Origin: Rivularia sp. T60_A2020_040
Lineage (GTDB): Bacteria; Cyanobacteriota; Cyanobacteriia; Cyanobacteriales; Nostocaceae
Direction: 5' to 3'
DNA length: 57,760 nucleotides
NCBI GenBank assembly: GCA_015272215.1
Contig: JACYMD010000046.1
Coordinates: 1 to 57,760, forward strand
Shown: piece by piece, positions 181 through 53,997 of the stretch
Layout: every line of letters begins with the position of its first letter
Numbering within the stretch: position 1 is the stretch's first letter
The notes under the pieces: model-generated
What the model was told of the DNA's origin: nothing
Databases searched by the model: none
The model's input: only the letters and a program-made list of their open reading frames with translations
Position numbers and translations under genes: made by a program

Positions 181-320
181 TGCACCATAAAAACCTATCG
201 TTAAAATAATTACTAATTGTTTGAGTTCATTTTTACCCGCCTGGGATTGTAAATCCCAGTTTGATAGCAGAAGTCCATTAAAATGGACTAAAGATATTAC
301 AGCTTTAGGTTAGTTATATT
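181..320 (+). repeat. Two-hairpin dispersed repeat, copy 1
   Basis: About 140 bases that recur at 53856-53997 with few differences. Hairpin I has arms CTGGGATT (241-248) and AATCCCAG (252-259) with loop GTA. A spacer TTTGATAGCAGA follows. Hairpin II has arms AGTCCAT (272-278) and ATGGACT (283-289) with loop TAAA. The same two-hairpin plan with different stems occurs at 15494-15544 and, inverted, at 15586-15631. No coding potential is seen. Confidence 0.8.
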
Positions 321-353
321 TATATTTATATTTATATTTATATTTATATTTAT
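314..353. repeat. TTATAT hexamer microsatellite
   Basis: Six full TTATAT units plus a partial seventh sit at the right edge of two-hairpin copy 1. The equivalent place in copy 2 (about 53991) has only one unit, so the array probably expanded after the copies separated. Confidence 0.85.
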
Positions 354-438
354 GGCTTTAAACCTTTAAGACAGTCTGGAATCAGATTTTTCCCGACTGC
401 CGAATGCCGACTGCCTGTTTTGGTAAAGAAGATATAAG

Positions 439-666
439 TCAATACAGTTCAGTTAAGGATATAAATTAATTACCGCAAACAAACAGATCGACTTTTTTGG
501 AGGGGGTTTGGGGGACGCAACCTTCCCCCGATTGGGGGTTTGGGGGAGAATCCCCCAAGTCTTGGTTCTCAATAAATTGATTGACGGACAACCTTAACCG
601 GGGAACGCCGGTCGCCGCAGGCTCCGCCGAGAATCGGCTCTTGTACCGGCGACTGAACTGTATTGA
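439..666. mobile_element. MITE-like insertion, 228 bp, with 8-bp target duplication
   Basis: Perfect 15-bp terminal inverted repeats, TCAATACAGTTCAGT at 439-453 and its reverse complement at 652-666. They are bounded directly by the direct repeat GATATAAG at 431-438 and 667-674, the pattern left by a transposase. The interior has no credible gene. It holds four G5 runs (502-506, 510-514, 534-538, 542-546) and a GC-rich right half unlike the AT-rich surroundings. It would need a transposase supplied elsewhere; an 8-bp duplication suits several IS families, so no parent is named. It lies just upstream of the MFS gene. Confidence 0.8.
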
Positions 667-744
667 GATATAAGTAGATAAACTAAAGCTGATAGGTTGA
701 ATCACGATACCCTAGTAAGAGTTTTAGTCTAGGGTGATAAATTT

Positions 745-2010
745 GTGAGCATTGATGAAACGAAACCAGTTAAGCACAGCCGTTTGATTGCTGCATCTCC
801 AATTTACTATGGCTGGGTGGTTTTGATGGCTGGGACATTAGGGATGTTGATGACAACCCCTGGTCAAACGGTAGGAGTTTCCGTATTCCTCGATAAAATC
901 ATTACCGAACTCGGTCTTACCCGTTCAACCGTTTCTTTACTATACATGTTCGGGACATTAGGTGGTTCTTTTACATTACCATTTATTGGACGCTTCATTG
1001 ACCGCAAAGGACCACGCTACGCAGTAATTGCGATCGCGCTTTTATTTGCGCTTGCTTGTGTGGGGATGGGATTTGTTCAAGGTTTGATCACATTAGGATT
1101 AGGTTTTATCGCCATTCGCGGTTTAGGACAAGGAGCGTTAGGATTAGTTAGTGTGAATGTAATTAATCTTTGGTTTGTCCGTCGTCGTGGTTTAGCTATC
1201 AGCTTATCTGGGATTGGTTTTGCTTTGGGGATGGCAGTGTTTCCGTTATTAATTGAGTTTCTGATTACTCAATTTGGTTGGCGAACAACATACATGATTC
1301 TTGGCGGAGTCGTCGCAGTTACGATTCTCCCCGTAGGTGCTTTGATTTACCGCGAACAACCAGAACGCTATGGTTTACAACCAGATGGTAAAGTCACGGT
1401 AACACAAACTCAACATCGAGAGGAAATCAACCATACAGTGGCTACAGCACGTCGTACCTTTACCTTTTGGTTGTTTGCTGCCGGAGGCTTTTGTGTCGCA
1501 GCTTTGGGAACTGGGTTAATTTTCCATCATTACTCGATTATGGCAGCTTCAGGGATTGAGCGTTCTGTTGCTGCGATTGTATTTGTCCCCTTTGGCTTTG
1601 TCACCGCAACTACCAACTTTGTTACAGGCATACTCATGGATCGGATTTCCCCCCGTTTGCTCCTGGGTGTTATGCTCATACTGCTATGTGCTGCCTTAAT
1701 CATGGCAGTACGAGTCACTGGTGCAGAATCAATGCTTGCATATGGATGTTTACTTGGTTTAATGCAGGGAATGAGTGGAGTTATTCAAGCTGGAGTTTAT
1801 GCCTATTATTTTGGACGATCGCATTTGGGATCAATTAGTGGTTTAGCCACAACTATTTTGGTTGCTGGTACAGCTTTTGGTCCAGTATTGTTTGCCACTG
1901 GCTTTGACAAATTTGGTAGTTACGCCCCTATTCTCACATTTTCGATCATACTACCAAGTGCGATCGCCTTAACTGCATTTTGGGTGGAGATGACACAGAA
2001 AAAAAATTAG
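745..2010 (+). CDS. MFS transporter, oxalate/formate-antiporter-like
   Basis: A 421-residue polytopic inner-membrane protein of major facilitator length, with about twelve hydrophobic segments in two halves separated by a hydrophilic loop near residues 205-235. The loop after helix 2 carries GRFIDRKGPR, the MFS motif-A type GxxxDRxGxR, and there is a matching DRISPR in the second half. The N-terminal YYGWVVLMAG-type opening is typical of the oxalate/formate antiporter branch of monocarboxylate carriers, so a small organic acid is a plausible substrate but cannot be assigned. Translation starts at a GTG. It is convergent with the histidine kinase gene, 50 bases apart. The MITE-like element lies about 80 bases upstream and may affect its promoter. 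Confidence 0.85.
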   Translation: MSIDETKPVKHSRLIAASPIYYGWVVLMAGTLGMLMTTPGQTVGVSVFLDKIITELGLTRSTVSLLYMFGTLGGSFTLPFIGRFIDRKGPRYAVIAIALLFALACVGMGFVQGLITLGLGFIAIRGLGQGALGLVSVNVINLWFVRRRGLAISLSGIGFALGMAVFPLLIEFLITQFGWRTTYMILGGVVAVTILPVGALIYREQPERYGLQPDGKVTVTQTQHREEINHTVATARRTFTFWLFAAGGFCVAALGTGLIFHHYSIMAASGIERSVAAIVFVPFGFVTATTNFVTGILMDRISPRLLLGVMLILLCAALIMAVRVTGAESMLAYGCLLGLMQGMSGVIQAGVYAYYFGRSHLGSISGLATTILVAGTAFGPVLFATGFDKFGSYAPILTFSIILPSAIALTAFWVEMTQKKN

Positions 2011-2059
2011 CCTTCCTCAGCGTGTACCTTTGCGTTAAAAAACGGAATGTGGGTTCAAA

Positions 2060-3433
2060 TCACCCGGTGTTTATTTTACCCAAATTCGGTAACTTTACCC
2101 GAAAACAACTTCCCACACCGACTTTACTCGTGACAAAAATTTCACCACCATGAGTATGAGTAATAGCTTGGACAATCGCTAAACCTAAACCCGAACCACC
2201 TTGACGACGAGAACGGGCTTTTTCAGCCCGCCAAAAACGGTTAAAAACTAAAGATAAATATTCCGATGCGATACCAATACCAGTATCCGCCACTTCAATC
2301 ACCACAAAATCATCACTTTTAAGCATTTTGACTCTGATGCAACCGCCATTAGACGTATATTGCAGGGCATTTTCGAGTAAATTCCCAAATAATCGTTGCA
2401 ACTGATGGGCATCCCCCTTTACCCATACTTGATCAATCAAATCAGCTTCTAGGGTAATTTCCTTGGCTTCTGCCTGCGGCTGTAAGCTATCAATTAAATC
2501 AAATAAAATTTCATCTACAGGTATGGGAATTGCGGTTTTGGTCAAACTTACAAGTCCAGAATCGCTTCTTGCTAACAACAATAAATCCTCCACCAAGTGC
2601 GTCATCTGCTTTGTTGCGCCCTCTATGATGGCGATTTTTTTCACATCAGTGGGATGAATACGTTCCGGGTGATTTTGCAGTACTTCCACAGTCGTTTTAA
2701 TCGCCGTTAGAGGACTGCGTAATTCATGGGACGCATCCGCCGTAAACTGTTGTAATTGCTGGAAACTCTGCTCAATCGGTTGCAAAGCTTTATTCGTCAA
2801 CCACCAACCTGTACCACTAATTAAAACCATTCCCAAAATATTACCAACCCCCAAACCCAACAACAATCTCTCCAGTTCTTTTTGTAATTCCACAGTTGAT
2901 GTACTTACACGCACATAACCGAAAATTTGTGGATTTTTTTCCGAAAAATAAACCGGAATCGTTAATCTTCTAAGGCGATTTTGCTGCCAATAATTAATCA
3001 CAAAGGGTGTTTGCGGAAACTCGTTTCCTGCCTTTCCTAATAATTGCTTCTGAGCATCAAACCATTCCACACTCTGATGATATAGCCGTAAATCTTGCCA
3101 AGGAATATCCAAATCCCCATCATCATCTAAAATGGGGGGCATTTTGCGATCGACAGCTTTGCTATCGGCTTGAATAGCTGATAAATTATGAGCTGCTGCA
3201 TCTGCCAATGTTAACAACTGCTGATCTAATTGCCGACTGAGGCTATAAGCAAAAAAATGATATACTACCACTGATGATAGTCCCATCACTACCATCATCG
3301 CCATCAAATAAGATAAAAGTAGTTGCCAAGTCGTAACGCGAAATTGAGGATTAGTTAAAATATCTCCCCACCGCCAAGGTAAAATAAACTTTCTAACCCC
3401 AAACCGACTTTTGTTTTTTGACTTTCTATTCAT
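2060..3433 (-). CDS. Membrane sensor histidine kinase (RppB/NrsS-like)
   Basis: An ORF extends upstream to 3610, but the ATG at 3433 is preferred because it overlaps the regulator stop by only 8 bases, typical of translational coupling, whereas the long form would overlap by 185. The 457-residue product has two membrane helices bracketing an extracytoplasmic sensor of about 140 residues. A dimerisation/phospho-acceptor helix follows with the H-box HELRSPLTAIK, then a GHKL ATPase domain with N-box NLLENALQY, G1 DTGIGIA and G2 GSGLGLAI. It would phosphorylate the adjacent regulator. The pair resembles Synechocystis RppA/RppB (NrsR/NrsS), which responds to nickel or redox; that stimulus is only a family analogy here. 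Confidence 0.87.
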   Translation of the reverse strand: MNRKSKNKSRFGVRKFILPWRWGDILTNPQFRVTTWQLLLSYLMAMMVVMGLSSVVVYHFFAYSLSRQLDQQLLTLADAAAHNLSAIQADSKAVDRKMPPILDDDGDLDIPWQDLRLYHQSVEWFDAQKQLLGKAGNEFPQTPFVINYWQQNRLRRLTIPVYFSEKNPQIFGYVRVSTSTVELQKELERLLLGLGVGNILGMVLISGTGWWLTNKALQPIEQSFQQLQQFTADASHELRSPLTAIKTTVEVLQNHPERIHPTDVKKIAIIEGATKQMTHLVEDLLLLARSDSGLVSLTKTAIPIPVDEILFDLIDSLQPQAEAKEITLEADLIDQVWVKGDAHQLQRLFGNLLENALQYTSNGGCIRVKMLKSDDFVVIEVADTGIGIASEYLSLVFNRFWRAEKARSRRQGGSGLGLAIVQAITHTHGGEIFVTSKVGVGSCFRVKLPNLGKINTG

Positions 3434-4103
3434 TTTGGTTAAGCCGATACCCAAGCCCGTAAACAGTTTCGATAAAATCATGTTTTGCTCCTGCGGCTTT
3501 GAGTTTTTGACGTATTCCTCGAATATGTACTTTAACTGTATCTTGTCCAGGCGGATCAATAGATGACCAAAGGCGATCAAGAATTTGATCGCGACTGAGG
3601 ACGTGTCCATTATTACGAAGAAATAGTTCTAATAATTGATATTCTTTAGGTGTCATCGATAACAGTTGACCTTTGTAAGTGACATTACAAGTTGCTGGAT
3701 CAAGCAGGAGTCCACCCCACTCTAACAGAGTTGATAACGGAACACTTCCACGTCTTAGCAAAGCCCGAATCCGGGCTAGTAATTCTTTTAAATCAAAAGG
3801 CTTAATCACGTAATCATCAGCACCTGCATCCAAACCTAATATTTTATCAATACTGGTATCTCTGGCAGTTAACATTAGCACAGGTAGACTATAACCACTC
3901 TGCCGTAATCTTTGGCACAATTCTATACCATTCAGTTTCGGTAACATTACGTCCAGAAGAATTAAATCATAACTGAATGCCGTGATCAAATCCCATCCTT
4001 CCTCACCGTCACCAGCTACATCAACCGCGTAATTATTGTCAGTTAAGGCTTCTGCAAGGGATGCAGCAATCCGTTCATCATCTTCAACTAATAAAAATTT
4101 CAT
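3426..4103 (-). CDS. OmpR-family response regulator (RppA/NrsR-like)
   Basis: 225 residues. The receiver domain (1-118) has acidic residues E7/D8/D9, phospho-acceptor D51 in LILLDVMLP, T79 and K101 in VIKPFDL. A winged-helix DNA-binding domain (about 127-223) contains TPKEYQLLELF and ends in the usual GYR motif. All catalytic residues are intact, so it should be a normal phospho-activated transcription factor. First gene of a two-gene operon with the histidine kinase. The PepSY-type gene diverges from it across a 243-base gap, making that gene a likely target. Confidence 0.92.
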   Translation of the reverse strand: MKFLLVEDDERIAASLAEALTDNNYAVDVAGDGEEGWDLITAFSYDLILLDVMLPKLNGIELCQRLRQSGYSLPVLMLTARDTSIDKILGLDAGADDYVIKPFDLKELLARIRALLRRGSVPLSTLLEWGGLLLDPATCNVTYKGQLLSMTPKEYQLLELFLRNNGHVLSRDQILDRLWSSIDPPGQDTVKVHIRGIRQKLKAAGAKHDFIETVYGLGYRLNQNE

Positions 4104-4346
4104 TTTTGATTATTTTATGAATGTAAAAGTATTTTTATCACTATATATAAGTATTATTCAGTAATAAAAACAAGTCTCCAACCAAATATTAAGGATTTTT
4201 AGAATGATCATAAATCTTTCCGAGTTATTTACTTTTGCTGTCTTATGCTCAAAGGTAGTTGAGGTTGAGTAGCAGATGTATATTATATTGCCAAGTATTA
4301 TTACACCTCGAACCTCAGAAATCTTGTATTCATTTAAGGGGTTTCA

Positions 4347-4940
4347 ATGCTCAATAACAATCAGTCTCGTGAATTTCGTAAACTTCACCGCAAGATAGCA
4401 CCAATATTGTTTATTCCTCTACTGCTGAGTGCGCTAACTGGTATTGGTTATCGTCTTGGAAGAAGTTGGTTTAGTATGCCCAAAGATACTGCGGAGATTT
4501 TTCTCGTAATTCACCAAGGTACTTTTTTAGGTAAGCCACTAGAACCAGTTTATGTCTCTTTGGTAGGGCTGGGACTAGTGGGGTTGGTGATTACCGGATT
4601 TGGTATGATTCGTAAAACCCAACAATCTCGCTCAAAAAAGGCACAATCTAAACTGAATGTCCGAACCATTCACAGTATGATTGCACCTATTATTTTTATA
4701 CCATTATTAATCAGTGCTATTACAGGTATTGCTTACCGAGTAGGTGGAAGCTGGCTGGGATTACCAAAAGAACAAAGGAAGTTATTGATGACAATTCATC
4801 AAGGTAGCTATTTCGGTGATTTTGGTAAACCCATTTATGTTTTGCTTGTTGGTTTAGGACTGATTGCTATGCTATTTACAGGTATCAGTATGACGGGAAT
4901 TTTTCGCAAATCTCGTTCCCCAGTTGAAGATAAGCAATAG
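4347..4940 (+). CDS. PepSY-associated-type membrane protein, internal duplication
   Basis: 197 residues forming two homologous halves, about residues 10-88 and 105-183, offset by 95. Each half has a helix beginning (K/T)(L/I)H..IAP and containing LS(A)LTGIGYR or ISAITGIAYR, then an amphipathic stretch with IHQG, then a second hydrophobic segment LVGLGL. Four His (H14, H56, H109, H151) occupy equivalent places, so intramembrane haem or metal binding is possible. The halves resemble the membrane helices of PepSY-associated TM proteins but lack the large periplasmic domain. It diverges from the two-component operon and is probably regulated by it. Function unknown; reductase partner or metal-handling protein is inference. 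Confidence 0.75.
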   Translation: MLNNNQSREFRKLHRKIAPILFIPLLLSALTGIGYRLGRSWFSMPKDTAEIFLVIHQGTFLGKPLEPVYVSLVGLGLVGLVITGFGMIRKTQQSRSKKAQSKLNVRTIHSMIAPIIFIPLLISAITGIAYRVGGSWLGLPKEQRKLLMTIHQGSYFGDFGKPIYVLLVGLGLIAMLFTGISMTGIFRKSRSPVEDKQ

Positions 4941-5031
4941 ACATCTCCAAAAAAGATGTAGAGACGGGGCGTATTGCTACGTCTCTACAAAGGTTCTGGA
5001 CAACGCATAATTAATTTTCACCAGATGTCTA
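4938..5031. repeat. Inverted-repeat element with TGTAG hairpin between convergent genes
   Basis: Outer 9-bp arms TAGACATCT (4938-4946, sharing the TAG stop of the PepSY-type gene) and AGATGTCTA (5023-5031) enclose an inner hairpin GTAGAGACG (4958-4966) / CGTCTCTAC (4980-4988). The inner hairpin belongs to a TGTAG-led palindrome group also seen at 14405, 44348 and 56475. It may serve as a two-way terminator. Confidence 0.55.
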
Positions 5032-5053
5032 ATAAAAGAAGAGATTTGTATAT

Positions 5054-5635
5054 TCAAAGTTTTACTAATCTTGGTAAAATCGCTTGAAATTCAGCTTTGT
5101 TAAGAGTCGCAAAATAAAGCTCGACTTCAATATTTGGATAGCGATCGCGAATTGACTGATAAGCTCGATTTAGATACTCTGTATGTATTTGCAATTCTTT
5201 ATCCGGGTTTTTACTTAAATTAGGGTCAATCATAGTTGCATAAGCGCCACAGTCTTGATGGTCGATGATAATCACTTTGTGAATATGATGTAGTCGATAG
5301 GATAGATCCAATTGGTCCCAAAATGCTTCGGCATCAGATGGATGAGGAAATCCTGTGACAGCCAAGGAAGCACCAGCTAAGGCTGTCCAATCATATTCAC
5401 CACCTAAATGTTTTCTGCCTAAAAAGTCACTTTCTGCTGTCAAAAATCGAAAGTCAATACAACTCAGAACTAAAGCTTTTGCTTGATGAGTTTCTGCTTT
5501 GGCAGGTGCTGTTGATTGTAAAAGACTAAATGCTAATGCTCCAGGAAGGAAGGATTTAAGAAAATGACGGCGACTAGCCGAGGGATGACAACAAAGACAT
5601 TGACTAGTCTTCGATTGATTGATACTGTTCTTCAT
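5054..5635 (-). CDS. Tat-exported beta-carbonic-anhydrase-like protein
   Basis: 193 residues. The N-terminus has a twin-arginine signal SRRHFLK (21-27), a hydrophobic core and a likely cleavage after AKA near residue 48, so the folded enzyme should be exported to the periplasm or thylakoid lumen. The mature part keeps the beta-class zinc and dyad motif C59-x-D61-x-R63 (in SCIDFRF) and the H126-x-x-C129 pair (in DHQDCG). At about 145 mature residues it is shorter than typical beta-carbonic anhydrases, so activity is likely but unproven. A Cys-rich stretch (CLCC, 13-16) precedes the Tat motif. A small upstream ORF overlaps its start by 32 bases. The SulP transporter lies on the same strand upstream, suggesting a shared inorganic-carbon or anion role. 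Confidence 0.78.
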   Translation of the reverse strand: MKNSINQSKTSQCLCCHPSASRRHFLKSFLPGALAFSLLQSTAPAKAETHQAKALVLSCIDFRFLTAESDFLGRKHLGGEYDWTALAGASLAVTGFPHPSDAEAFWDQLDLSYRLHHIHKVIIIDHQDCGAYATMIDPNLSKNPDKELQIHTEYLNRAYQSIRDRYPNIEVELYFATLNKAEFQAILPRLVKL

Positions 5636-5789
5636 TTTTGATTTGTAGATTTACTGCTGAAACTCTAGCTTGAAAACTAGCCCAATAATCAATATTAATA
5701 TCTGGTAATTCATTAATTATCCGTTGTTCAAGAATACCATTTTTTATTTGCGATTTGAAGTTGTGAGTTTGTTGATTGGGATTGGGCAT
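5604..5789 (-). CDS. Small protein (61 aa) overlapping the carbonic-anhydrase start
   Basis: Unrecognised 61-residue ORF whose ATG follows a strong ribosome site, GAGGAG with 9 bases spacing. By contrast, the carbonic-anhydrase ATG has no clear Shine-Dalgarno of its own and lies inside this ORF's end (32-base overlap in another frame). This arrangement suggests that translating the small ORF opens the downstream start. The product is polar, with no membrane helix; its middle reads DINIDYWASFQARV. It could be a real small protein, possibly a partner of the exported enzyme, or a leader ORF. Confidence 0.55.
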   Translation of the reverse strand: MPNPNQQTHNFKSQIKNGILEQRIINELPDINIDYWASFQARVSAVNLQIKNEEQYQSIED

Positions 5790-5855
5790 TTTTGAAGGCT
5801 CCTCAGATTGTTTAATCTAGATTAATTATCTTGTTAAGCGAATATTCCCCTGATT

Positions 5856-6257
5856 TCAATAAATATAATAATCTCCAATTTTTTTGTCTAATTCAGCTTG
5901 AATGAGTTTTAAAATTCGACTAAACTCTACCGTTTTTTGGAGTAAAATACCTGCTCCTAGCTGACTAATTTTTTTGAAAGAAGAGGAAAGCTTTGGATGA
6001 TTTGTATTGTTGGTTAAAAATATCAAAGGCATTTCAAAACTTGTTGAAGATCCATGTATTTTTTGAAATTTTTGATAGCCGATTTCTTCAACTATTTCTA
6101 ATGAATAAACAATTAAATCTGGGTACTGTTCATTAGCTAAATGTGAACCCATAAAAATATTGTTGGCTTCAATTACATGAAAATTATTATTTCTCAGAAA
6201 TTGACATAATAGGTGACGAAAACTTCTGTCGTCTTCAACTACTAAAATATTCTTCAT
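5856..6257 (-). CDS. Stand-alone receiver-like protein lacking the phospho-acceptor Asp
   Basis: The ATG giving MKNILVVEDD is preferred over one 39 bases upstream because it matches the usual receiver start. 133 residues with the CheY-like pattern: acidic pocket E8/D9/D10, T82 and K108 are present. However, the Asp expected five residues after D47 is Ser52 (DLIVYSLEI), so ordinary phosphorylation cannot occur. There is no output domain. Such pseudo-receivers usually act through protein contacts or bind other signals. It lies between the carbonic-anhydrase pair and the SulP gene, all on the minus strand, with 276 bases separating it from SulP. Partner unknown. Confidence 0.78.
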   Translation of the reverse strand: MKNILVVEDDRSFRHLLCQFLRNNNFHVIEANNIFMGSHLANEQYPDLIVYSLEIVEEIGYQKFQKIHGSSTSFEMPLIFLTNNTNHPKLSSSFKKISQLGAGILLQKTVEFSRILKLIQAELDKKIGDYYIY

Positions 6258-6572
6258 GATTTTCGATTTTTGAGTTATTTCTTGGTAATGGGGCAATAAA
6301 ATTGATGCTGATGTTCATCAAAGGGTGGTGATTTAATCGATTAAATTTGTTAAATTTTATTAGAGAATAAAATCACACACCCGAATTATAAATGGGACAA
6401 AGTATTAGGCTTTATTGATGATTCTAAATATCTATTGTGCTTTGTTGAGAATAAAGTAGTACTCCACTCCATGTCATGAATTATGATAAATTATTAGTTG
6501 CCATTTATCGCTTAAATCAAGGGCTAAAGTCTCACTACAAACATTTAAAATTAATGACATAAACCAGTAGTG

Positions 6573-8261
6573 TCAATCATTTAATTCCATCAATTCCTTT
6601 GTTTTCAAATCAGCCGCTATAGTTTCAGAACATCCTACAATCTGAGGATTAAGAGAACAAATCGCATCTGTCGTTGTTGCAAAACAATTTGACAATCCAA
6701 TGATGTTTAAAAATCCTGAACGCTCTAATATTTGCTTAACTTCAGGTTGTAAACCTGTGAGAATTAAGCGACAATTATGCCGTTTTAAGTCGTGGTAAAT
6801 ATCTTCTAAGGCTACTAATCCAGTCGTGTCTATATTTGGCACAAACCGTAACCGCAAAATTAAATACTTCACTTCCGGCTCATCGCGGAGGAAGGTAACA
6901 AAGCGTTCCGCAGCACCAAAAAATACAGGTCCATCTACACGATATACGGCAATTTCTTTACTTAATTCTAAAGGAGTACCAGGGGGAAATACCTCCGTTT
7001 CCGGTATTTTAGCTAAGCTTAAATCGCTCATCCGTTTGATAAACAAAACTCCTGCTGCAATTAATCCCACTTCCACAGCCAAAACTAAGTCAAACAAGAT
7101 TGTCACCAACCAAGTCAGAATCATCACCGCAAAGTCGGAGTAAGTCGCACGTACCAATAAACCAATGGCTTCCCACTCAATCATCCGCACACTAACTACC
7201 ATCAAAATACCAGCCAGTGCTGCTAAGGGAATTTGTGCCGCTAAGGGTGCTAAAGTTAAAACAATCATGGCTAAAGCAACACCATGAATTACTCCAGATA
7301 ATCTAGTTTTACCACCAGAACGGACATTCACAGCAGTCCGAGCAATTGCACCCGTCGCGGGAATACCACCAAAAAATGGCACAATCATATTAGCCAAACC
7401 TTGACCAATTAATTCGCGATCGCTATTATGTTTCTGGCTGACTGTCATACCATCAGCCACCACCGCTGATAGCAACGATTCAATACTCCCCAATGCAGCC
7501 AAAGCCAAAGCTGGATTAATCAGTTCCCGAATCACAGTAAAATCATTCCAGTGGGGAATACCTTGGGGTATCGGTAAGGATTGGGGAATAATCCCAATTG
7601 TCGGTACATCCAAATCAAAATAAGCAGCTATTCCCGTTGCTAATACTAACCCAACTAAAGAACCCGGTATTGTAGAATTAATTTTCGGCCACAAAACCTT
7701 GGCGACAATCACCACCGTTGCTAACCCCACAGCCGCCCAGTTTAAAGCTTCTACATGAGTTAAAGTTTGCCAAAGCGTCGGTAGAAAATGTTCGCTGCGT
7801 GGTAATTGTAAACCAAAAAAATTATTTAATTGACCACAAAATATAATTACGGCAATACCATTGGTAAAGCCTGCCGTCACTGGATAGGGAATAAACTTGA
7901 CTAACCGTCCCAGTTTAGCAACTCCTAGGGCTACCTGGATAATCCCAGCCATCACCCCAGCAATCCAAACTTTCTCAATACCATACTTAGCGACAATTCC
8001 CACCAAAACCACAGCCATTGCACCTGTAGGCCCGGTAATTTGGACTGGGGAACCACCAAAAATTGCGGCGACAATTCCCGCCACAATCGCGGTGTAAAGT
8101 CCCGCCTTGGGTTCCACACCACTAGCTACCGCAAAGGCTAAAGCCAGAGGTAAGGCTACCACCGCTGCTGTTAATCCCCCCGTTAAATCGCCGCGCAGTC
8201 CACTAAACCAGCGATTTAAACGCAAAAGTTGTGGTTCTTCAAGGATATCAGAGATTGCCAT
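6573..8261 (-). CDS. SulP-family anion transporter with STAS domain
   Basis: 562 residues from the ATG giving MAISDILE; an upstream in-frame start would run into the ArsR gene's 3' end. The N-terminal 430 residues are strongly hydrophobic, with SulP signatures GGLTAAVVALPLALAFAVASG and QITGPTGAMAVV in the substrate core. A C-terminal STAS domain (about 440-545) includes DTTGLVALEDI. The family carries sulfate, bicarbonate or other anions; cyanobacterial BicA is a Na-bicarbonate member. An exported carbonic-anhydrase-like gene nearby makes bicarbonate attractive, but substrate cannot be read from sequence. The ArsR gene ends 40 bases upstream, so they probably form one transcript under its control. 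Confidence 0.88.
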   Translation of the reverse strand: MAISDILEEPQLLRLNRWFSGLRGDLTGGLTAAVVALPLALAFAVASGVEPKAGLYTAIVAGIVAAIFGGSPVQITGPTGAMAVVLVGIVAKYGIEKVWIAGVMAGIIQVALGVAKLGRLVKFIPYPVTAGFTNGIAVIIFCGQLNNFFGLQLPRSEHFLPTLWQTLTHVEALNWAAVGLATVVIVAKVLWPKINSTIPGSLVGLVLATGIAAYFDLDVPTIGIIPQSLPIPQGIPHWNDFTVIRELINPALALAALGSIESLLSAVVADGMTVSQKHNSDRELIGQGLANMIVPFFGGIPATGAIARTAVNVRSGGKTRLSGVIHGVALAMIVLTLAPLAAQIPLAALAGILMVVSVRMIEWEAIGLLVRATYSDFAVMILTWLVTILFDLVLAVEVGLIAAGVLFIKRMSDLSLAKIPETEVFPPGTPLELSKEIAVYRVDGPVFFGAAERFVTFLRDEPEVKYLILRLRFVPNIDTTGLVALEDIYHDLKRHNCRLILTGLQPEVKQILERSGFLNIIGLSNCFATTTDAICSLNPQIVGCSETIAADLKTKELMELND

Positions 8262-8301
8262 ATTGACTCCAAACACGATTTGGTTGATGCACTCACAGGT
8301 T

Positions 8302-15475: not shown

Positions 15476-15493
15476 AAATATGTTTTAAAGCCT

Positions 15494-15631
15494 GACCGAG
15501 AATCAAATTCTCGGTCTAATAGCGAAAGTCGTCTAAAGACGACTGAAAAATTATTGATTATATTAAACATAGTGAGTATCACTTCAGTCCTATTTATAGG
15601 ACTTTTGCTATTAGACAGGGACTTGCAGTCC
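15494..15631. repeat. Two-hairpin repeats in head-to-head pair
   Basis: Forward element: hairpin I GACCGAGAAT/ATTCTCGGTC (15494-15516, loop CAA), spacer TAATAGCGAA, hairpin II AGTCGTC/GACGACT around TAAA (15527-15544). Inverted element: AGTCCTA/TAGGACT around TTTA (15586-15603), then GCTATTAGAC and GGACT/AGTCC (15619-15631). The two spacers GTCTAATAGC and GCTATTAGAC are themselves inverted repeats. Same plan as 181-320 and 53856-53997 but with unrelated stem sequence. Confidence 0.75.
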
Positions 15632-15903
15632 GTGGCGTGTCGGATGCACACCCGGTAAAATTAATCTGGTAAAGTACTAATCATCAATCTGGAAAAAAAA
15701 TCCGTTTAGTGACTGAAATAATCCGTACAGTAGCAGAAATCGTCTTCACAACTAAAGTAATTCCCTGTATTTTTGAATATACTTCTCAATAACTTCAAGT
15801 AAAAAAGTAGTTTTCTGTAGAAGTAAGCGATTTATTTCGGGTGTATATATTACGATTTATTGACAAGTATTAAGAACAATTACTTATAGTGGTGTGAAGA
15901 GTA

Positions 15904-46596: not shown

Positions 46597-46655
46597 GAAT
46601 AGGGAAGAGGGAAGAGGGAATTGGGAATTGGGAATTGGGAATTGGGAATTGGGAA
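46597..46655. repeat. GGGAAGA/TTGGGAA heptamer array
   Basis: Runs into 111-bp repeat copy B. A short ORF here is only repeat sequence. The 402-base gap between ftsH and the aminotransferase gene otherwise holds copy B and AT-rich promoter sequence for ftsH. Confidence 0.88.
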
Positions 46656-46658
46656 CAA

Positions 46659-46769
46659 ATTACTCCCTTCCCGGCAGAAGATTACCGATAAAAAAACCCT
46701 TCTAGACGCAGAGAACACATTCGTAAAGAGATAAAGAGAAATAGGTAATTTTCCAGCGGGATAGGAGTA
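46659..46769. repeat. 111-bp inverted-end repeat, copy B
   Basis: Same orientation as and indistinguishable from copy A, 2.5 kb away, on the other side of ftsH. Followed by TGTCAAC heptamers and the aminotransferase stop. Confidence 0.88.
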
Positions 46770-46799
46770 ACTGTCAACTGTCAACTAACTCCCAATTCC

Positions 46800-47987
46800 C
46801 TATTTCCAAAATTCTTCAATTTCCTCAACTAATTGATCGATTTCCGATTCTAAAGTAAAGTAGTGAACGCAGGCACGGACACAATCTGGGTCAGCAATTG
46901 TACGGATAAATATTCCTTTGGCTTCTAAAAATTTGACTAATTCTAAACTAGTTTTAGATTGATTACTTTGCAATTGGAATGAAACTAAACCTGATTCGGG
47001 GGGAGAATGTAGTAGACATTTTATACCCGATACTGCCATTAATTTTTTCCAGAGGTACTCGCTGTTACGACAAATTTGTTGATAACGTTCTTCGGATGTA
47101 CCCCATTTTTGATGCACTGAAATTGCTTCGGTTAAACCAACATAAAAGGGATAAGCTGAAGTTGCGATTTCATATCTTTCCCCGCTTTCTTGCCATTTTA
47201 CAGGTTGAGCTTGACCATCAATAACAATGCTACGCCAACCGACAAAGGTAGGATAAAGACTTTCCCGTTCCTGGGGACGCACGTACAAACCCCCTACACC
47301 CGGAGGTCCACACAACCATTTATGACCTGTAAACGCATAAAAATCCGCTCCCAAGTCGCTCAGATTTAATGGCAATAATCCAACAGATTGCGCTGCGTCT
47401 ACCATTAATTTTGTATTATTGTTTTTACAACAAACTACTATTTTTTCTAAAGGTAAAACTTGTCCTGTATTCCAAAGTACGTGACTTAACACCACCATGC
47501 GGGTACGGGGGCGCAAATGCTGAGCAATTATTGCTACAGGGTCGCCATTATTTAAAGTTGCCATTATCGGACAAGTAGTCACTTCTACAGAAAATCTGCG
47601 TGCTATTTCGCGAGCTGTCGCAACAATTCCTGGATGTTCGCAGTCTGTCAAAAGTATGTGGTCGCCTGCTTTCCAGTCAATGCCCCACATGGCAATATTG
47701 CAACCAACGGTTACATCTTCAGTCAGTGTAATTGTCTCCGATGGTACATTCAACTCGGTTGCAATTGCGACTCTAGTGGCTTTAGTCTGTTGTATAAGCC
47801 AAGCATTAACTTCGCTGCCAAAAGGACCGATTCGCTGAATTTGATCTTGGGCTTGAATTACGGCATTCATCGCCGTTTGCGGCATCGGTCCTTGACCTCC
47901 GAAGTTAAAATAAGCTTTATTCGCTAAAGCGGGAAATTGTTGTCGATATTGATGCAACCCTGTTTGTGTAGCAGATATACTTGTCAT
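46800..47987 (-). CDS. Class V PLP enzyme, C-DES/cysteine-lyase-like
   Basis: 395 residues of fold-type I. PLP-binding Lys in AFTGHKWLCGPPGVGGLYV, VDAAQSVGLLPLNL for the pyridine Asp, and the N-terminus YRQQFPALANKAYFNFGGQGPM resemble Synechocystis L-cysteine/cystine C-S lyase (C-DES), which can release persulfide sulfur for Fe-S clusters. A desulfurase or isopenicillin-epimerase-like activity is the alternative. Stop codon lies at the start of a GGGAATT array. Confidence 0.85.
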   Translation of the reverse strand: MTSISATQTGLHQYRQQFPALANKAYFNFGGQGPMPQTAMNAVIQAQDQIQRIGPFGSEVNAWLIQQTKATRVAIATELNVPSETITLTEDVTVGCNIAMWGIDWKAGDHILLTDCEHPGIVATAREIARRFSVEVTTCPIMATLNNGDPVAIIAQHLRPRTRMVVLSHVLWNTGQVLPLEKIVVCCKNNNTKLMVDAAQSVGLLPLNLSDLGADFYAFTGHKWLCGPPGVGGLYVRPQERESLYPTFVGWRSIVIDGQAQPVKWQESGERYEIATSAYPFYVGLTEAISVHQKWGTSEERYQQICRNSEYLWKKLMAVSGIKCLLHSPPESGLVSFQLQSNQSKTSLELVKFLEAKGIFIRTIADPDCVRACVHYFTLESEIDQLVEEIEEFWK

Positions 47988-47999
47988 ACCAATTTTAGA

Positions 48000-48118
48000 T
48001 TTTAGATTTTGGATTTTGGATTTTGGATTTTAACAACGGATGTATCTGTTTGGGATTTTGCGGAAAGCTGCTAGGGCAGAAACTTACGGGAGCAAGTTTT
48101 TTAAGATGGATTTTGGAT
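48000..48118. repeat. GGATTTT array and dispersed repeat copy 2
   Basis: TTTTGGA units (48000-48032), then GGATTTTGCGGAAAG (48053-48067) through AAGATGGATTTTGGAT, matching the ends of 11814-11879 with a different interior. The remaining 356-base gap before the nuclease gene shows no gene. Confidence 0.6.
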
Positions 48119-48343
48119 GATAAAACGGGTTAAAAGCGACCGATTTATTGACTTTATAAGGGTTTTAAACAGTAAATTCAACTTTTAAATATTTCAAACC
48201 GATTTTTTTTCCTATCTTTTAAAAACTGTTTCCTTTACTTATCCGAACCAGGAATACTGCTATAAGCAATGTACATTACACAACACCAATTTTGGTTATC
48301 TTGATTACTCCCAGATTGCACTAATTCTTGTTAACTTAAAAGA

Positions 48344-49933
48344 ATGTTAATTAATGCCGAACTATTACTACAATATCAAAAGTGTAAACGCCGACCGTTT
48401 TTGAATGTTCACGGCGATAAGAATCAGCAAGATGCTCCTAGCGACTTACTTCTAAAACTGTATCAAGATAAATATGCTCATAAAAAACATATTTTAGAAC
48501 AAATCAGTTATCAACGTCCGAAGTTTTCCAAGGGGGAACCGAAAACTGCGGAAGCGGCAACTTTGGAATTGATGCAGCAGGGAGTTGAATATATTTATAA
48601 AGGGATACTGACAACAAGTTATGCTGACAATCATACTCTGCTAGCACGTCCGGATTTACTCATCAAACAACAGGGTAATTCAAGATTCGGAGATTGGATG
48701 TACGTTCCCGCTAGAGTTGAATTAGGTAAGCGTCCTAAACAAGAATATCAAGTTATTGCCGCATTTTATGCTTTTGTTTTAGAAGCAGTACAACAAGTTG
48801 AGTTGGAAACGGCTTGGTTGATGTTGCGGGGAAAAGAAACTAGATACAACGTTGATTTAGTCAAATGGATACCCCGGATGCAAGAAATTTTGGACGAATG
48901 TATCCAAACGTTGCATTTACCAACACCTCCCGAAGTTTTTATTTCTCGTCAAAAGTGCAGTCTTTGTAATTGGTACAGTAGCTGTCATCAAACTGCTTCC
49001 ACACAAAAACATCTTTCGTTGGTACCGGGAGTAACCCCAGGTCGTTACGATTGGTTAAAAATCCTTGACATTACAACTTTAGAATCTCTTGCTCAAACCA
49101 ATCCTTCAGAACTAAAAGACTTACCCGGTTTTGACAGTGAAGTTGCAACTCAAATTGTTTTACAGGGAAAATCTTTACTCGAAAATCGTCCGCTGTTTTT
49201 ACCACAAGCCTTAGTTGAACAAACGATAACTGAGGAATTTGCAACAACAACACATCAGTCCTTACTAACTCTACCAAACGATAACGCAGTAATTAAACGG
49301 CGATCGCCATCAATTCAATATCCCACAATCGTAGAAATTGACCCAGTAGTATACGAAACTGTTACTTATACAGCTCCCATCGAACTTTATTTTGATATAG
49401 AAGCCCAGCCAGATTTGAATTTAAATTATTTATTAGGAGTTTTAGTTGTTGACAGAGAACATAACACCCAACAGTTTTATTCTTTTCTTGCAGAAAAACA
49501 AGAGGAAGAAAAATTAATTTGGCAGCAATTTTTAGAATTAGTATGGCAATATCCCGATGCACCAATTTATCATTTTTGTGTTTATGAATTCGACACAGTA
49601 CAACGGCTAGCAAAACTTCACCGTACTCCTTCTAAAAAAGTATTACCAGTATTGAATCGATTTGTTGATATCTACGAACAACTAACGGCTACAGTCACAT
49701 TACCAGTTGAGAGTTATGCCTTGAAAGCGATTGCTAGGTGGATGGGATTTGAATGGCGTGACCCAGAAGCCAGCGGAGCTAAGTGTATTTACTGGTATGA
49801 TAGATGGTTGAAAACTGGCGATCGCGCTTTGTTAGAAATCATCAAACGTTACAATGAAGACGATTGTCGAGCAACTCACAGCGTCAAAGATTGGCTAGTT
49901 AACTTTTTTGAAAGTCAATACAATGACAGTTGA
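48344..49933 (+). CDS. TM0106-type RecB-like nuclease with RNase H-like domain
   Basis: 529 residues. N-terminal PD-(D/E)xK region with ELLLQYQKCKRRPFL, ARPDLLI and ARVELGKRPKQEYQ. An Fe-S-type Cys set comprises Cys14 of QKCKRRPF with KCSLCNWYSSC. A helix-hairpin-helix-like patch is ELKDLPGFDSEVATQIVL. The C-terminal RNase H/DnaQ-like fold has LYFDIEAQPD, CVYEFDTVQRL and EDDCRATHSVKDWL. Known from bacteria and archaea as TM0106 family with unproven DNA-processing role. Its last Asp-Ser-stop is in a TGACAGT repeat. Confidence 0.86.
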   Translation: MLINAELLLQYQKCKRRPFLNVHGDKNQQDAPSDLLLKLYQDKYAHKKHILEQISYQRPKFSKGEPKTAEAATLELMQQGVEYIYKGILTTSYADNHTLLARPDLLIKQQGNSRFGDWMYVPARVELGKRPKQEYQVIAAFYAFVLEAVQQVELETAWLMLRGKETRYNVDLVKWIPRMQEILDECIQTLHLPTPPEVFISRQKCSLCNWYSSCHQTASTQKHLSLVPGVTPGRYDWLKILDITTLESLAQTNPSELKDLPGFDSEVATQIVLQGKSLLENRPLFLPQALVEQTITEEFATTTHQSLLTLPNDNAVIKRRSPSIQYPTIVEIDPVVYETVTYTAPIELYFDIEAQPDLNLNYLLGVLVVDREHNTQQFYSFLAEKQEEEKLIWQQFLELVWQYPDAPIYHFCVYEFDTVQRLAKLHRTPSKKVLPVLNRFVDIYEQLTATVTLPVESYALKAIARWMGFEWRDPEASGAKCIYWYDRWLKTGDRALLEIIKRYNEDDCRATHSVKDWLVNFFESQYNDS

Positions 49934-50016
49934 CAGTGGACAGTTGACAGTTGACAGTGGACAGTTGTCTTTAATCTTTAACCTTAAACCTTAAACCTTT
50001 GACCTTTAACCTTTAA
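49925..50016. repeat. TGACAGT, CTTTAAC arrays at the nuclease stop
   Basis: TGACAGT/TGGACAG units starting in the last codons of the nuclease gene, then a ACCTTTA/AACCTTA array reaching the start region of the next gene. Confidence 0.88.
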
Positions 50017-50028
50017 CCTAAGTTTACC

Positions 50029-51207
50029 GTGGGAATTAAAAAATTATTTAAGTTACCATTAATTATTATTTTTTTCGCCACAATTGTGATAATAGTGTTT
50101 TTCTTCAGTAACTTCAGAACTTCTGCTGTCGAGGTAACGGGTATAAACTTTATCGGCGAAGCAATTTTACCCACAGGTACAAATTTTGAAAATACTGAAT
50201 TAGGAGGGTTATCGGGAATAACTTATGATAGTCAAAATCAAATTTATTATGCAATATCTGATGACCGTTCTCAAAAATCGCCCGCGAGATTTTATACTTT
50301 TAATATTAATCTTAATATAGATTCTTTTCAAATTAGCGATATTAAAACTGTTAGTATCACAACTTTAAAAGATAAAAATGGTAAAACATTTTCTCCTGGA
50401 ACTATAGATTCAGAAGGAATAGCAGTAACTAACAACTCATCGATATTCGTCTCATCAGAAGGTGATACAATCGCGGGAATAAATCCATTTATCAAAGAGT
50501 TTTCCCTCAATTCAGGGCAAGAGATTTCTAGTTTAGCAATACCTGAAAAATATTTACCATCTCCAGATAAAAAACGTGGTATTCGTAATAACTTAGCTTT
50601 TGAAAGTCTGGCGATTACACCTGATAAAAGGCATTTATTTACAGCTACTGAAAATGCAATTCTTCAAGATGGTGAAGAAGCCAAACCCAATCAAGAAAGC
50701 TTATGCAGAGTTTTACAATATAATTTGATTAATAAAAAATTAGAAAAAGAATTTCTTTACCCTACTGAAAGAGTCAAACCATTTTTTAATTTTAATGGTA
50801 GGTTTTCTAGCGGATTAACCGATTTAATTGCACTCGACAATCAAGGACATTTTTTGAGTATAGAAAGAACTTTTACAGGTTTAGGTTTTGTGAATTCATT
50901 ATTCAAAGTATCGTTAGAGAATGCTGATGATATACAGAATATTGACAGTCTAAAAAAAGTTGATTTGAAAACCATTAAACCTATTAACAAAGAACTTTTA
51001 TTAAATTTAGGCAACCTAGATATTGCATTAGATAATACCGAAGGGTTAACTATTGGAGAAACTTTACCAAACGGACAACCTTCATTAATTTTAGTCAGTG
51101 ACAATAACTTTAATAAACTCCAACGTACTCAATTTTTAGCATTCCAACTCAAGATAGAATCACGACTCGAAAGACTCTTACGTTTAATTCGCAATCGCAT
51201 TTTCTAA
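50029..51207 (+). CDS. Esterase-like activity of phytase family protein
   Basis: 392 residues from GTG. Signal/anchor segment 8-27. Then the beta-propeller-like core of this family: GGLSGITYDSQNQIYYAISDDR, TIDSEGIAVTNNSSIFVSSEGD, ESLAITPDKRHLFTATENA and NTEGLTIGE. Exported or surface-attached; the family name reflects distant similarity to phytase, and the substrate is unknown. Single gene. Confidence 0.86.
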   Translation: MGIKKLFKLPLIIIFFATIVIIVFFFSNFRTSAVEVTGINFIGEAILPTGTNFENTELGGLSGITYDSQNQIYYAISDDRSQKSPARFYTFNINLNIDSFQISDIKTVSITTLKDKNGKTFSPGTIDSEGIAVTNNSSIFVSSEGDTIAGINPFIKEFSLNSGQEISSLAIPEKYLPSPDKKRGIRNNLAFESLAITPDKRHLFTATENAILQDGEEAKPNQESLCRVLQYNLINKKLEKEFLYPTERVKPFFNFNGRFSSGLTDLIALDNQGHFLSIERTFTGLGFVNSLFKVSLENADDIQNIDSLKKVDLKTIKPINKELLLNLGNLDIALDNTEGLTIGETLPNGQPSLILVSDNNFNKLQRTQFLAFQLKIESRLERLLRLIRNRIF

Positions 51208-51731
51208 GCATAAACTCTTACTCATGTCGCTTTTCTTGCTCCGTATAAACAGGGATACTACTCCATGTATATTTTATTCGATATCTTAAAATAGCTGTTT
51301 AAGTATGTACAATCTACATCCATTCTAGTTGAACAAAAAATCAATTTGATAAACATTGAAAAGTGTTGCATTTACAAGCTTTCACCTCCAAATATCGAAT
51401 TATCCAGGATTGCGATAACAGTATATCCACTTAGATTATTTAGCAAACTTCATGTAGCAGCAAAAAGTGTTTCCGTAAAATTTCTCATAGGAAACATTAG
51501 TTGCTTGTGTTACATAATGTTTAGTGTGTTTACTAGAAATCCCGGTATGCTCAGTTAAAACTTTATATCTAATAAAAATTGATTGCCGTTAGTAAGCAAT
51601 TAAACTTAAGTATAAGTTAAGACCTTATTTTCAATCCCTCTCCTGATTTATAGGGAAGAAAGCTAGAGGTGACTTACTTGTATAAGCACTGATTTCCTCC
51701 CAAATTTAAAAATGTATTAATTCATTGATTT
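51208..51731. other. 524-base intergenic region, nothing recognised
   Basis: AT-rich. A TTG-started 70-codon ORF (51346-51558) has no ribosome site and poor composition. No repeat, tRNA or hairpin of note found. Confidence 0.55.
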
Positions 51732-53342
51732 ATGTTGCAACAAAAAGTCAAGAAGATGTTAATTCAAAAACATAAAACAGAATTAGACACTTATATTGGA
51801 AAATTCCTAAATCATCGTTATTTAATCAGAGACTTAATTGGTAAAGGAGGAGGGGGTAAAGTATATTTAGCAGAAGATTGTACCAACGCTGGAGTACCAG
51901 TAGCGGTAAAGATTTTGTCGTTAAAATTGGATAATCAAACAATATCGCAACGCTTTGCAAAAGAAATTTTTATTAGTTCTCAATTAGGACGTAAAAGTAA
52001 ACATATTGTCCGCATATTAGGCTACGGTATTACTGATGATAAAATTCCATTTTATGTAATGGAATATCTTCAAGGTAAAAATTTATTAGAATTCATCAAT
52101 AATCAGCCTTTAACATTAGAAAAATTCTTTGATATCATCTATCAAATTTGTTTGGGTTTACAATGCGCTTATCAAGGAGTGACTGTCAAAGGAAAAATTT
52201 GTCCAGTTATTCATCGAGATATTAAACCAGAAAATATATTTATTACTCAAGATGCCAAAAAAGCAGAAACAGTTAAAATATTAGATTTTGGGATTGCTAA
52301 ACTCTTAAAAGAAAGGGCTGGAGCAACACTTTCTCAATCTTTTATAAGTAGTTTACCTTATACCGCTCCAGAAAATATGGAAGGACGCAAACTATTAGAT
52401 ATACGTTCGGATATTTACAGTTTGGGTATTCTCATGTATCAGATACTTTGTGGAAAGCATCCATTTCAGTTGAAAAGTAACTCCTTTGGTGAATGGTATC
52501 AAGCCCATCGTTTTGAAACACCGCTTTTATTAAACGAAATAATCAACGAGGCTAATGTACCCCTTGAATTAGAAAATTTAGTGATGAGTTGTTTAGCCAA
52601 AGAAATTAAAAATAGACCTGAAAATATTACCGAAATCTTAGAAAAATTAGAATTAATTCAACGTCAATCCTACCAAATTACCAAAAATGAACATAAACAT
52701 AATATTTCAGAATTATCGATAGATATAACACCATTAAAATTAACTTCTAAAAATATTTGTTTGCAAAAAAAATGGCCTGAAAATAAGCCAATTGCACCAA
52801 TTGCTTTCCCTGATTTACTATATACAGTACAAGGGGAAATTCCTACATTTTGGGTGATGTTACCCCAAGCAGAGATTTATAAATTTTTAGATAAACAAAA
52901 TACTACAGAATTTATCCAAAAAATTAATATTTACCCGATGATTATGTGGCTAACAGTTCTACACGAAGCAAATTCATCATTAACACGCTGGCTATCTTAC
53001 TTCCTAGATATCAAAGATAAACAAGAAGAAAGAATAGTCAGACATTTAGCAGAAAAAGGATACTATCACCTGTTATTTTTTGCATTAGAAGAACCAACAA
53101 AATTACCTCATGTCACAACTGTTACAATTACACTCCACCAGCGCGAACAATTATTAATTTGTTTAGAAGCAAGTCAAAATTCTCAAAGCTTGATTCCATC
53201 CAATCAAAGTAAAACCATTCTCAAAGCACAGTACGAAAAAATGAAGCCGAAAATTCTGCAAAGAATATTGGACGAGCAACAAAAGAAAACACCTATTAAG
53301 CTTTGGTTGTCTAATTTTTTCACTAAACGATTTAAATTTTAG
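51732..53342 (+). CDS. Serine/threonine protein kinase with uncharacterised C-terminal domain
   Basis: 536 residues. The Hanks-type kinase domain (about 29-310) is complete: glycine loop IGKGGGGKVYLAED, VAVK with K60, HRDIKPEN with D163, DFG with D185 and APENMEG. Active kinase expected. Residues 330-536 carry no repeat, sensor or membrane helix I recognise and include PTFWVMLPQAEIYKFLD. A cytosolic signalling kinase; the FHA protein at 10841 could read its products, but this is speculative. Confidence 0.9.
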   Translation: MLQQKVKKMLIQKHKTELDTYIGKFLNHRYLIRDLIGKGGGGKVYLAEDCTNAGVPVAVKILSLKLDNQTISQRFAKEIFISSQLGRKSKHIVRILGYGITDDKIPFYVMEYLQGKNLLEFINNQPLTLEKFFDIIYQICLGLQCAYQGVTVKGKICPVIHRDIKPENIFITQDAKKAETVKILDFGIAKLLKERAGATLSQSFISSLPYTAPENMEGRKLLDIRSDIYSLGILMYQILCGKHPFQLKSNSFGEWYQAHRFETPLLLNEIINEANVPLELENLVMSCLAKEIKNRPENITEILEKLELIQRQSYQITKNEHKHNISELSIDITPLKLTSKNICLQKKWPENKPIAPIAFPDLLYTVQGEIPTFWVMLPQAEIYKFLDKQNTTEFIQKINIYPMIMWLTVLHEANSSLTRWLSYFLDIKDKQEERIVRHLAEKGYYHLLFFALEEPTKLPHVTTVTITLHQREQLLICLEASQNSQSLIPSNQSKTILKAQYEKMKPKILQRILDEQQKKTPIKLWLSNFFTKRFKF

Positions 53343-53397
53343 TTTAAGCATGAGGTACAAAGAAATAGTTAGTCTGCATGACAAAGCTTAAAGGTCA

Positions 53398-53422
53398 ACT
53401 GTCCACTGTCAACTGTCAACTG
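53398..53422. repeat. CAACTGT/CCACTGT array
   Basis: Three to four heptamers between the kinase gene and tRNA-Asp. Confidence 0.75.
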
Positions 53423-53504
53423 TCCCCCCATCTCAAAAAAAAATCCCAGCGACCTCTTGACAAACCACTATGGAAGAGCGATAATCAAAAAGTTGAAAAC
53501 ACAT

Positions 53505-53578
53505 GGGACTGTAGTTCAATTGGTTAGAGCACCGCCCTGTCACGGCGGAAGTTGCGGGTTCGAGCCCCGTCAGTCCCG
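53505..53578 (+). tRNA. tRNA-Asp (GTC)
   Basis: 74 bases. Acceptor arms GGGACTG and CAGTCCC, D-arm GTTCAATTGGTTAGAGC, anticodon stem CCGCC/GGCGG around CTGTCAC with anticodon GTC, T-arm GCGGG-TTCGAGC-CCCGT, discriminator G. CCA is not encoded. Confidence 0.97.
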
Positions 53579-53855
53579 TTCTAAAATCAAAAAATTAAAG
53601 TTCAGCTAAGTTAAGTAAATTATCAAACACTTGACTTTAAGAATTAACCAGATAGTGAATCTGTATAAGAGGCTTGTGAAAAATAATTTCTCAAATTTTG
53701 TAGTGGCAACAAGATACTCGGTTGAGAAATACAGCGAGCTTTCCGGCTTTTACTACCCGATCTAAATGTAGATATTTATTTAGTGAAGTCCTTAATTAGA
53801 AATTAGCCTTTACTTTTTTTGGTTTTTTTTTAATGGTGAAAGTTTACTCATATCT
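53579..53855. other. Intergenic, nothing recognised
   Basis: AT-rich sequence after tRNA-Asp; no gene or structured element identified before the two-hairpin repeat. Confidence 0.5.
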
Positions 53856-53997
53856 TGCACCATAGAAACCTATCGTTAAAATAATTACTAATTGCTTGAC
53901 TTCCTTTTTACCCGCCTGGGACTGTAAGTCCCAGTCTGATAGTAGAAGTCCATTAAAATGGACTAAAAATATTACAGATTTAGATTAGTTATATTTT
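53856..53997 (+). repeat. Two-hairpin dispersed repeat, copy 2
   Basis: Closely matches 181-320. Hairpin I is CTGGGACT/AGTCCCAG (53916-53934), with the T-A pair of copy 1 replaced by C-G on both strands. Spacer TCTGATAGTAGA. Hairpin II AGTCCAT/ATGGACT around TAAA (53947-53964). Confidence 0.82.

Follow-up and report, generated by a model that had tools for sequence, protein, structure and literature searches.

Introduction

In the REPtrons and REPINs of TnpA_REP (RAYT) transposases, as described in the text of three studies (PMC3116915, PMC6006769, PMC8266576), a low-copy Y1 gene is flanked by dispersed palindromes (REPs, repetitive extragenic palindromes), inverted dimers form the non-autonomous version and a short conserved motif lies beside the hairpin. 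Compensatory changes have been reported for the REPIN hairpin (PMC3116915). These traits recur in the system that we describe here. It consists of a two-hairpin repeat, the type A unit, which occurs four times in a 57,760-nucleotide stretch of Rivularia sp. T60_A2020_040 (contig JACYMD010000046.1, analysed whole and called the window below), and of a Y1 transposase gene that the same repeat flanks in related genomes. The window is contig 109 of the source genome, which has 6.02 Mb in 139 contigs. We find that the type A unit is probably a DNA recognition element and substrate, in single-stranded form, of an IS200-like transposase of TnpA-Y1 subclass 1.2 in a REPtron-like system.

Other described systems share parts of this arrangement. 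IS200/IS605 elements (subclass 1.1) have a homologous HUH/Y1 protein and subterminal hairpins; type A units, in contrast, occur in inverted pairs and spread on their own in high number. The text on cyanobacterial GTAG REPs and TIRtrons (PMC3733652) describes dispersed palindromes and dimers, some within longer palindromes, as well as double palindromic terminal inverted repeats (TIRs) beside some Y1 genes, and it names Nezha among the cyanobacterial miniature inverted-repeat transposable elements (MITEs). For subclass 1.2 itself, PMC6006769 gives the motif Y---Q--HH, an occurrence mostly in Cyanobacteria and Bacteroidetes and 1.7 copies per genome, and its Table 1 enters 'no' under REP.

Results

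The type A unit and its copies

The type A consensus reads CGCC, hairpin I, (G/T)CTNATAGCNNA and hairpin II. Hairpin I has a stem of 7–8 bp and a loop of the form T-N(1-2)-A-A, while hairpin II takes the form AGTCnnn-TNAA-nnnGACT. The spacer motif is CTNATAGC; unlike the cyanobacterial GTAG REPs, type A has no GTAG. Both loops are nearly invariant among 107 distinct copies: with the closing T-A included, T is the first and A the last base of the hairpin I loop in 107/107, while in hairpin II the first loop base is T in 107/107 and the last is A in 106/107.

A sequence-only reading of the window had proposed four elements of one plan, at 181–320, 15494–15544, 15586–15631 (inverted) and 53856–53997. 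All four are present, and R1, the covariance model that we built for the unit, places them at 238–293 (copy 1, plus strand, 77.1 bits), 15493–15548 (plus strand, 70.3 bits), 15582–15637 (minus strand, 74.4 bits) and 53913–53968 (copy 4, plus strand, 79.3 bits). The two middle copies are the left and right halves of an inverted dimer whose stems differ. At up to 3 mismatches TCTRATAGCRRAAGTC has 9 matches in the window against 2.84 expected, and at 0–1 mismatch only the four unit copies match. The 15.5-kb copies have only a core of about 56 bp in common with the outer copies, and their stem sequence differs. Between the copies at 181 and 53,856 the reading had seen a double compensatory change, from GGGATT/AATCCC to GGGACT/AGTCCC. 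The change is indeed compensatory, but it is a single one, with one base pair altered on both sides.

The covariance-model search of the genome and its relatives that the reading had recommended gave at least 120 matches in the source genome at E ≤ 0.1 (scoring was limited to 150 candidates). At this threshold type A matches also occur in 18 of 20 relatives. Across the order, with E ≤ 1e-4, stricter filters and up to 23 candidates scored per genome, the repeat was found in 151 of 243 genomes. The open literature that we searched, as text without figures or supplements, showed no description of the unit.

Type A units flank one branch of Y1 transposase genes

We gathered Y1 transposase genes by PF01797. 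Type A stands beside all eight discovery loci of one branch of proteins (branch 1), which are close to MxLWRLYYHxVWATKER (L151, L164, L206–L209, L212 and L213). When a profile of these eight proteins was run on the 243 genomes of the order (E ≤ 1e-40), the gene was found in 52 of them, mostly as a single copy. Of 30 order-wide loci, 29 have type A within 600 bp of the gene on one side or the other, usually at 10–130 bp; 26 have it 5', 24 have it 3' and 21 have it both 5' and 3'. Leaving out four loci that had already been seen, 25 of the 26 new ones have type A on at least one side and 18 on both, where the chance expectation for such a stretch, taken from 24 matches in a 6.1-Mb genome (G016), is below 0.01. 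Named GTDB loci at 58% identity or more, at least three of which repeat loci of the profile search, have type A within up to 2 kb in 11 of 13 cases; the other two belong to Symploca sp. SIO1C2 and to a Desulfobacteraceae metagenome-assembled genome.

Beside other Y1 genes the unit is rare, and the association marks branch 1. A separate finder that requires the spacer and both hairpins, and is therefore stricter than R1, detected type A at 26 of 34 branch-1 loci, 0 of 6 branch-2 loci (see below), 0 of 33 IS200-type loci (a number that includes one place twice) and none of 23 RAYT-like loci, the IS200-type and RAYT-like (long, low-scoring Y1) groups being drawn by score and length rather than by tree. 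We also considered a RAYT as the partner of type A and rejected it: by R1, none of 20 RAYT-like loci (L166–L185) holds a unit.

At the level of whole genomes, the repeat is carried by 51 of 52 gene-positive compared to 100 of 191 gene-negative genomes (Fisher p 2.5e-11, uncorrected for kinship). Twenty or more type A matches occur in 36 of the 52 and 34 of the 191, again uncorrected for kinship. The source genome itself has no branch-1 transposase match to the profile at E ≤ 1e-40. The sequence-only reading had advised a check for a TnpA-Y1 or other transposase associated with the hairpins; a TnpA-Y1 gene flanked by units does exist, but in the relatives, and because no cognate gene was found in the source genome at this threshold, its type A copies look like orphans.

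The associated protein

The branch-1 protein matches PF01797 (E 7.5e-29). Residues Y113, Q117, H120 and H121 of the Y---Q--HH motif, together with H53 and H55, are invariant in 11/11 aligned proteins. Against NCBIfam, one protein scored 90.7 bits with the IS200 model NF033573 (cut-off 55) and 26.3 bits with REP_Tyr_transpos, below its cut-off of 80. Eight distinct sequences of solved relatives match, all of them named transposases, with ISHp608 the best (E 3.6e-14). By motif alone, we provisionally assign the protein to TnpA-Y1 subclass 1.2. Its signature, size, cyanobacterial/Bacteroidetes range and low copy number agree with the subclass as PMC6006769 presents it, whereas the cyanobacterial members found here differ from that presentation in having flanking two-hairpin repeats.

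A second branch of proteins, 38–43% identical to branch 1, is accompanied by a different repeat. This type B repeat, composed of hairpin I, GCTAC or GCTAT, AA and hairpin II, lies near 6/6 branch-2 loci, which are not independent, as the flanks of L211 and L215 are near-identical; its finder is unspecific, for at 22 of 34 branch-1 loci it picks up type A in reverse, and it also matches in 1 of 23 RAYT-like loci. In the GCTAC form, type B reads GTAG on the reverse strand. One of the six loci, L083, carries the branch-2 TnpA gene of the source genome, whose frame loses the Y---Q--HH end with the catalytic tyrosine (L083 1504–1818). There the finder's type B match is 1.5 kb from the gene, with closer imperfect ones seen by eye; at the lost end of the branch-2 gene a tnpB-like frame, also by eye, appears to start.

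In more distant relatives, inspection by eye showed related two-hairpin plans at one Desulfobacteraceae and three Chloroflexi loci. The Bacteroidetes loci among the 17 of 80 loci viewed had single hairpins or none marked, and no two-hairpin plan. The single hairpins near the gene at five of them (L285, L297, L307, L311 and L319), for example CGACCCC-NNN-GGGGTCG or TGACCCT-NNN-AGGGTCA, may be REPs of their own.

Inverted dimers

The two units at 15493–15637 form an inverted dimer without the MITE ends that enclose the outer copies. Inverted dimers recur in relatives, with their units about 60–100 bp apart, start to start. Among the matches listed for the 15.5-kb place, only relative G001 has both flanks; at this homologous place it keeps the left unit, and another sequence replaces the right one. 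No empty site or target was found for the dimers. We compared arms in 32 distinct dimers, a set to which one genome (G011) contributes many. As a plain count, the paired units have the hairpin I arm in common in 0/32 cases; they have the hairpin II arm in common in 3/32, within the shuffled range (mean 5.1).

Four type A dimers stand in tandem at L195 (148–756) with a period of about 165 bp, and at L119 (1556–1703) the units of a type A dimer are separated by a different palindromic element (AAGTAGAAC...GTTCTACTT).

The outer copies are cargo of a MITE

The outer copies are alike over nearly 190 bp (173–359) because both lie inside one repeated element, which we call MITE1. The MITE1 copy at 173–359 (plus strand), which carries copy 1, is 87% identical to the 53.9-kb one; its left TIR is degenerate and its right TIR is not clear. 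The copy at 53847–54054 (plus strand), which carries copy 4, has ATATCTTGCACC as its left TIR and a degenerate right TIR. Two of the four placements in the window are thus not independent, a point that the sequence-only reading missed. A run of TATATT/TTTATA units (311–352) lies at the right end of the first MITE1 copy.

With 40 of 121 candidates scored, a composed query of 169 bases matches the genome at no fewer than 41 places, and the TIR motif at up to 1 mismatch occurs at 112 places at least. The element is about 203 bp long, and 26 of its 31 distinct full-length copies have 196–198 bp between the outer TIR motifs. Exact target duplications of 4 bp, set off from the ATATCTTGCACC motif by three bases on its outer side, are present in 23 of the 31, compared to a mean of 3.3 and a maximum of 8 with shuffled flanks. 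With TIRs, a constant length, a target duplication and no gene, MITE1 is a MITE. No parental insertion sequence of MITE1 was identified; a first scan was confined to TIR pairs 120–420 bp apart, and a later one found 11 loose pairs 420–3500 bp apart in the stretches of the source genome examined. The 53.85-kb copy has no counterpart in the flanks examined of relatives G001, G003 and G007. The stretch missing from G007 at this place is longer than the MITE, so it does not make a clean empty site. A plasmid collection searched with one 140-base stretch gave no match. Cyanobacterial MITEs such as Nezha are also TIR elements of about 200 bp without a gene. Judged by description, MITE1 differs in its own TIR, ATATCTTGCACC, and in its two-hairpin cargo.

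By eye, one MITE1 copy (L020, about 1412–1748) is broken by an element with AGAGGATGTTTTAAA ends that itself holds type B (GTAG) two-hairpin repeats, a case of nested mobile DNA. Type A units also lie, again by eye, inside other TIR elements (L191, L193, L187, L018, L076 and L135), and the ends of such elements are GGGAGCATCC, CTACGGTGTACACACAA, TAGTGCTTTGTCCCATTA and GACACGGCA. Enclosing TIRs as a general property of dimers found no support in an automatic test, in which an inverted repeat around the dimer exceeded the 99% null in 1/19 cases (130-bp flanks, a length that the majority of G011 loci did not reach); the TIR families other than MITE1 are known by eye alone.

These results bear on whether the unit simply belongs to the normal structure of MITEs and moves by nothing but the DDE transposases that act on their TIRs, with the Y1 association secondary. 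Two of the four window copies in MITE1, an element with target duplications at most of its full-length copies (23/31), and the other TIR families that enclose units would fit such an origin. Nevertheless, we consider it unlikely, since the automatic test found so few enclosed dimers, the core is common to copies whose flanks differ, and this core marks one subgroup of Y1 genes.

Stems covary without wobble pairs

To the 115 matches of alignment A3, from the window genome and relatives, correspond 107 distinct rows from 64 sources and 1596 cells. The rows were picked by the structural model, so the sample is biased toward pairing. Stem cells are paired in 96.4%, compared to 75.1% in shuffles, and 324 cells are changed on both sides; 0/500 shuffles reach either value. 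Covariation in this covariance-model alignment, which the sequence-only reading had made a condition of its proposal, is above chance. Slid structures pair at most 45.7%, and the covariation score is 0.535 against 0.139 when shuffled and no more than 0.092 with partners slid. Two other measures are unremarkable: 22/500 shuffles reach the count of doubly changed pairs (11 of 15), and 118/500 reach that of further pair types (31).

In A3, 1532 cells are Watson-Crick, against 6 G·U and 28 A·C; another 30 are of other kinds and 9 are gapped, and 15 of the 28 A·C cells fall in one base pair. Around the gene, alignment A6 (the best 150 of 175 matches in the 30 gene loci, four of which had been seen before; 128 distinct rows) has 1829 Watson-Crick, 13 G·U, 18 A·C and 33 other cells. 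A third sample was selected by spacer only and gave 276 units; the 214 with at least 4/7 pairs were used for hairpin II, where 1449 of 1498 cells are Watson-Crick, 11 G·U, 8 A·C and 30 other. Selection on an RNA should tolerate G·U well above A·C. Since neither is favoured, we read the pairing as one between DNA strands, and the scarcity of G·U points to a unit that pairs as DNA rather than RNA.

The strong covariation and the conserved loops and spacer would also be expected of a structured RNA conserved for its fold, such as a regulatory element, a processing site or a terminator. We regard this as improbable, given that G·U and A·C are comparably rare in all three samples (6/28, 13/18 and 11/8) and that relative G001 retains one 15.5-kb unit and not the other. 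Moreover, Rfam 15 at the gathering threshold finds tRNA alone in the window, so that type A units match no described RNA family, and the window copies have A-rich, not T-rich, sequence after hairpin II, which means that the unit is no intrinsic terminator on that strand. The sequence-only reading had suggested selection on structure, for a transposase substrate or for RNA; the first of these has gained from the flanked TnpA-Y1 gene in relatives, whereas the second has fared poorly.

Template-switch repair leaves perfect palindromes without wobble, in line with the rarity of both G·U and A·C, and it may contribute to the wobble-free stems. As the source of the compensatory changes in place of selection for a substrate it is very improbable, because the nearly invariant spacer, the T-N-A-A loops (first base T in 107/107, both loops) and the gene association would be left unexplained, although it may act as well.

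Discussion

Our preferred interpretation, a DNA substrate of an IS200-like TnpA, rests on a system that works like a REPtron. As in REPtrons, the Y1 gene is flanked by the repeat and its inverted counterpart (29/30 loci on at least one side, 21/30 on both, within 600 bp). However, the GT[AG]G that REPtrons have at the hairpin foot is missing from type A, GTAG being found only in the sister type B, and the protein is IS200-like and of class 1 (Y---Q--HH), whereas RAYT is of class 2. The unit also differs from a REP in having two hairpins with a motif between them, and this motif is CTNATAGC, not GTAG. As two defining features are absent, the GTAG foot and the class 2 protein, we do not call the system a REPtron.

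In the mechanism that we envisage, TnpA would bind single-stranded copies of the unit, for example those on the lagging strand. It would contact them at the loops and at the CTNATAGC spacer, which would take the role of the GTAG guide in REPs. TnpA would then cut near the unit and, like REPtrons and REPINs, dimers with or without the gene would move. As in REPtrons, the transposase gene sits between or inside inverted unit pairs, and gene-less inverted dimers spread through genomes would be the non-autonomous copies. In the source genome, the units are either orphan dimers (such as 15493–15637) or passive cargo of MITE1, which would be copied by an unrelated transposase with target duplications of 4 bp. 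The orphan state of this genome fits gene loss together with passive copying in MITE1.

Several observations weigh against this interpretation. Binding, cleavage and movement by TnpA are what we infer, not what we observe. No clean dimer insertion with an empty site was found, and G001 at 15.5 kb has one unit and a different sequence. With a plain count for hairpin I and a hairpin II count within the shuffles, the unlike ends of the dimers are a description and not a tested property. The Symploca gene locus (L233, the same as L262) has no type A nearby, while by R1 a unit lies no more than 1.4 kb from the gene at an IS200-type locus (L155), of a group in which the finder detects none, and at a degenerate Y1 locus (L082). 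Co-occurrence holds in one direction only: the repeat is present in 100 gene-negative genomes, 34 of them with at least 20 matches, and the source genome is among them. Finally, template-switch correction within palindromes, and not selection, could have produced the compensatory pairs.

It is tempting to extend the substrate interpretation further, though we give the extension somewhat less than even weight. Subclass 1.2 TnpA and its two-hairpin repeats may form a separate REPtron-like line within the IS200 class, apart from the RAYTs, whose two branches switched the motif, so that type A has CTNATAGC and type B has GCTAC, and kept the plan. The dimers may also be cargo of several apparently unrelated TIR (MITE) families which, if true, would account for their survival in genomes without the gene.

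The comparison of G·U with A·C cells offers a simple means to separate DNA palindromes from RNA structures, and two protein branches matched with two hairpin types provide material for studying how Y1 enzymes change specificity. Most likely the repeat is a substrate of the REP/REPtron kind for a transposase subclass that has lacked one until now. The HUH transposases entered without REP in Table 1 of PMC6006769 thereby gain a candidate substrate that is directly testable in vitro, and the finding accounts for a repeat that 151 of the 243 genomes carry.

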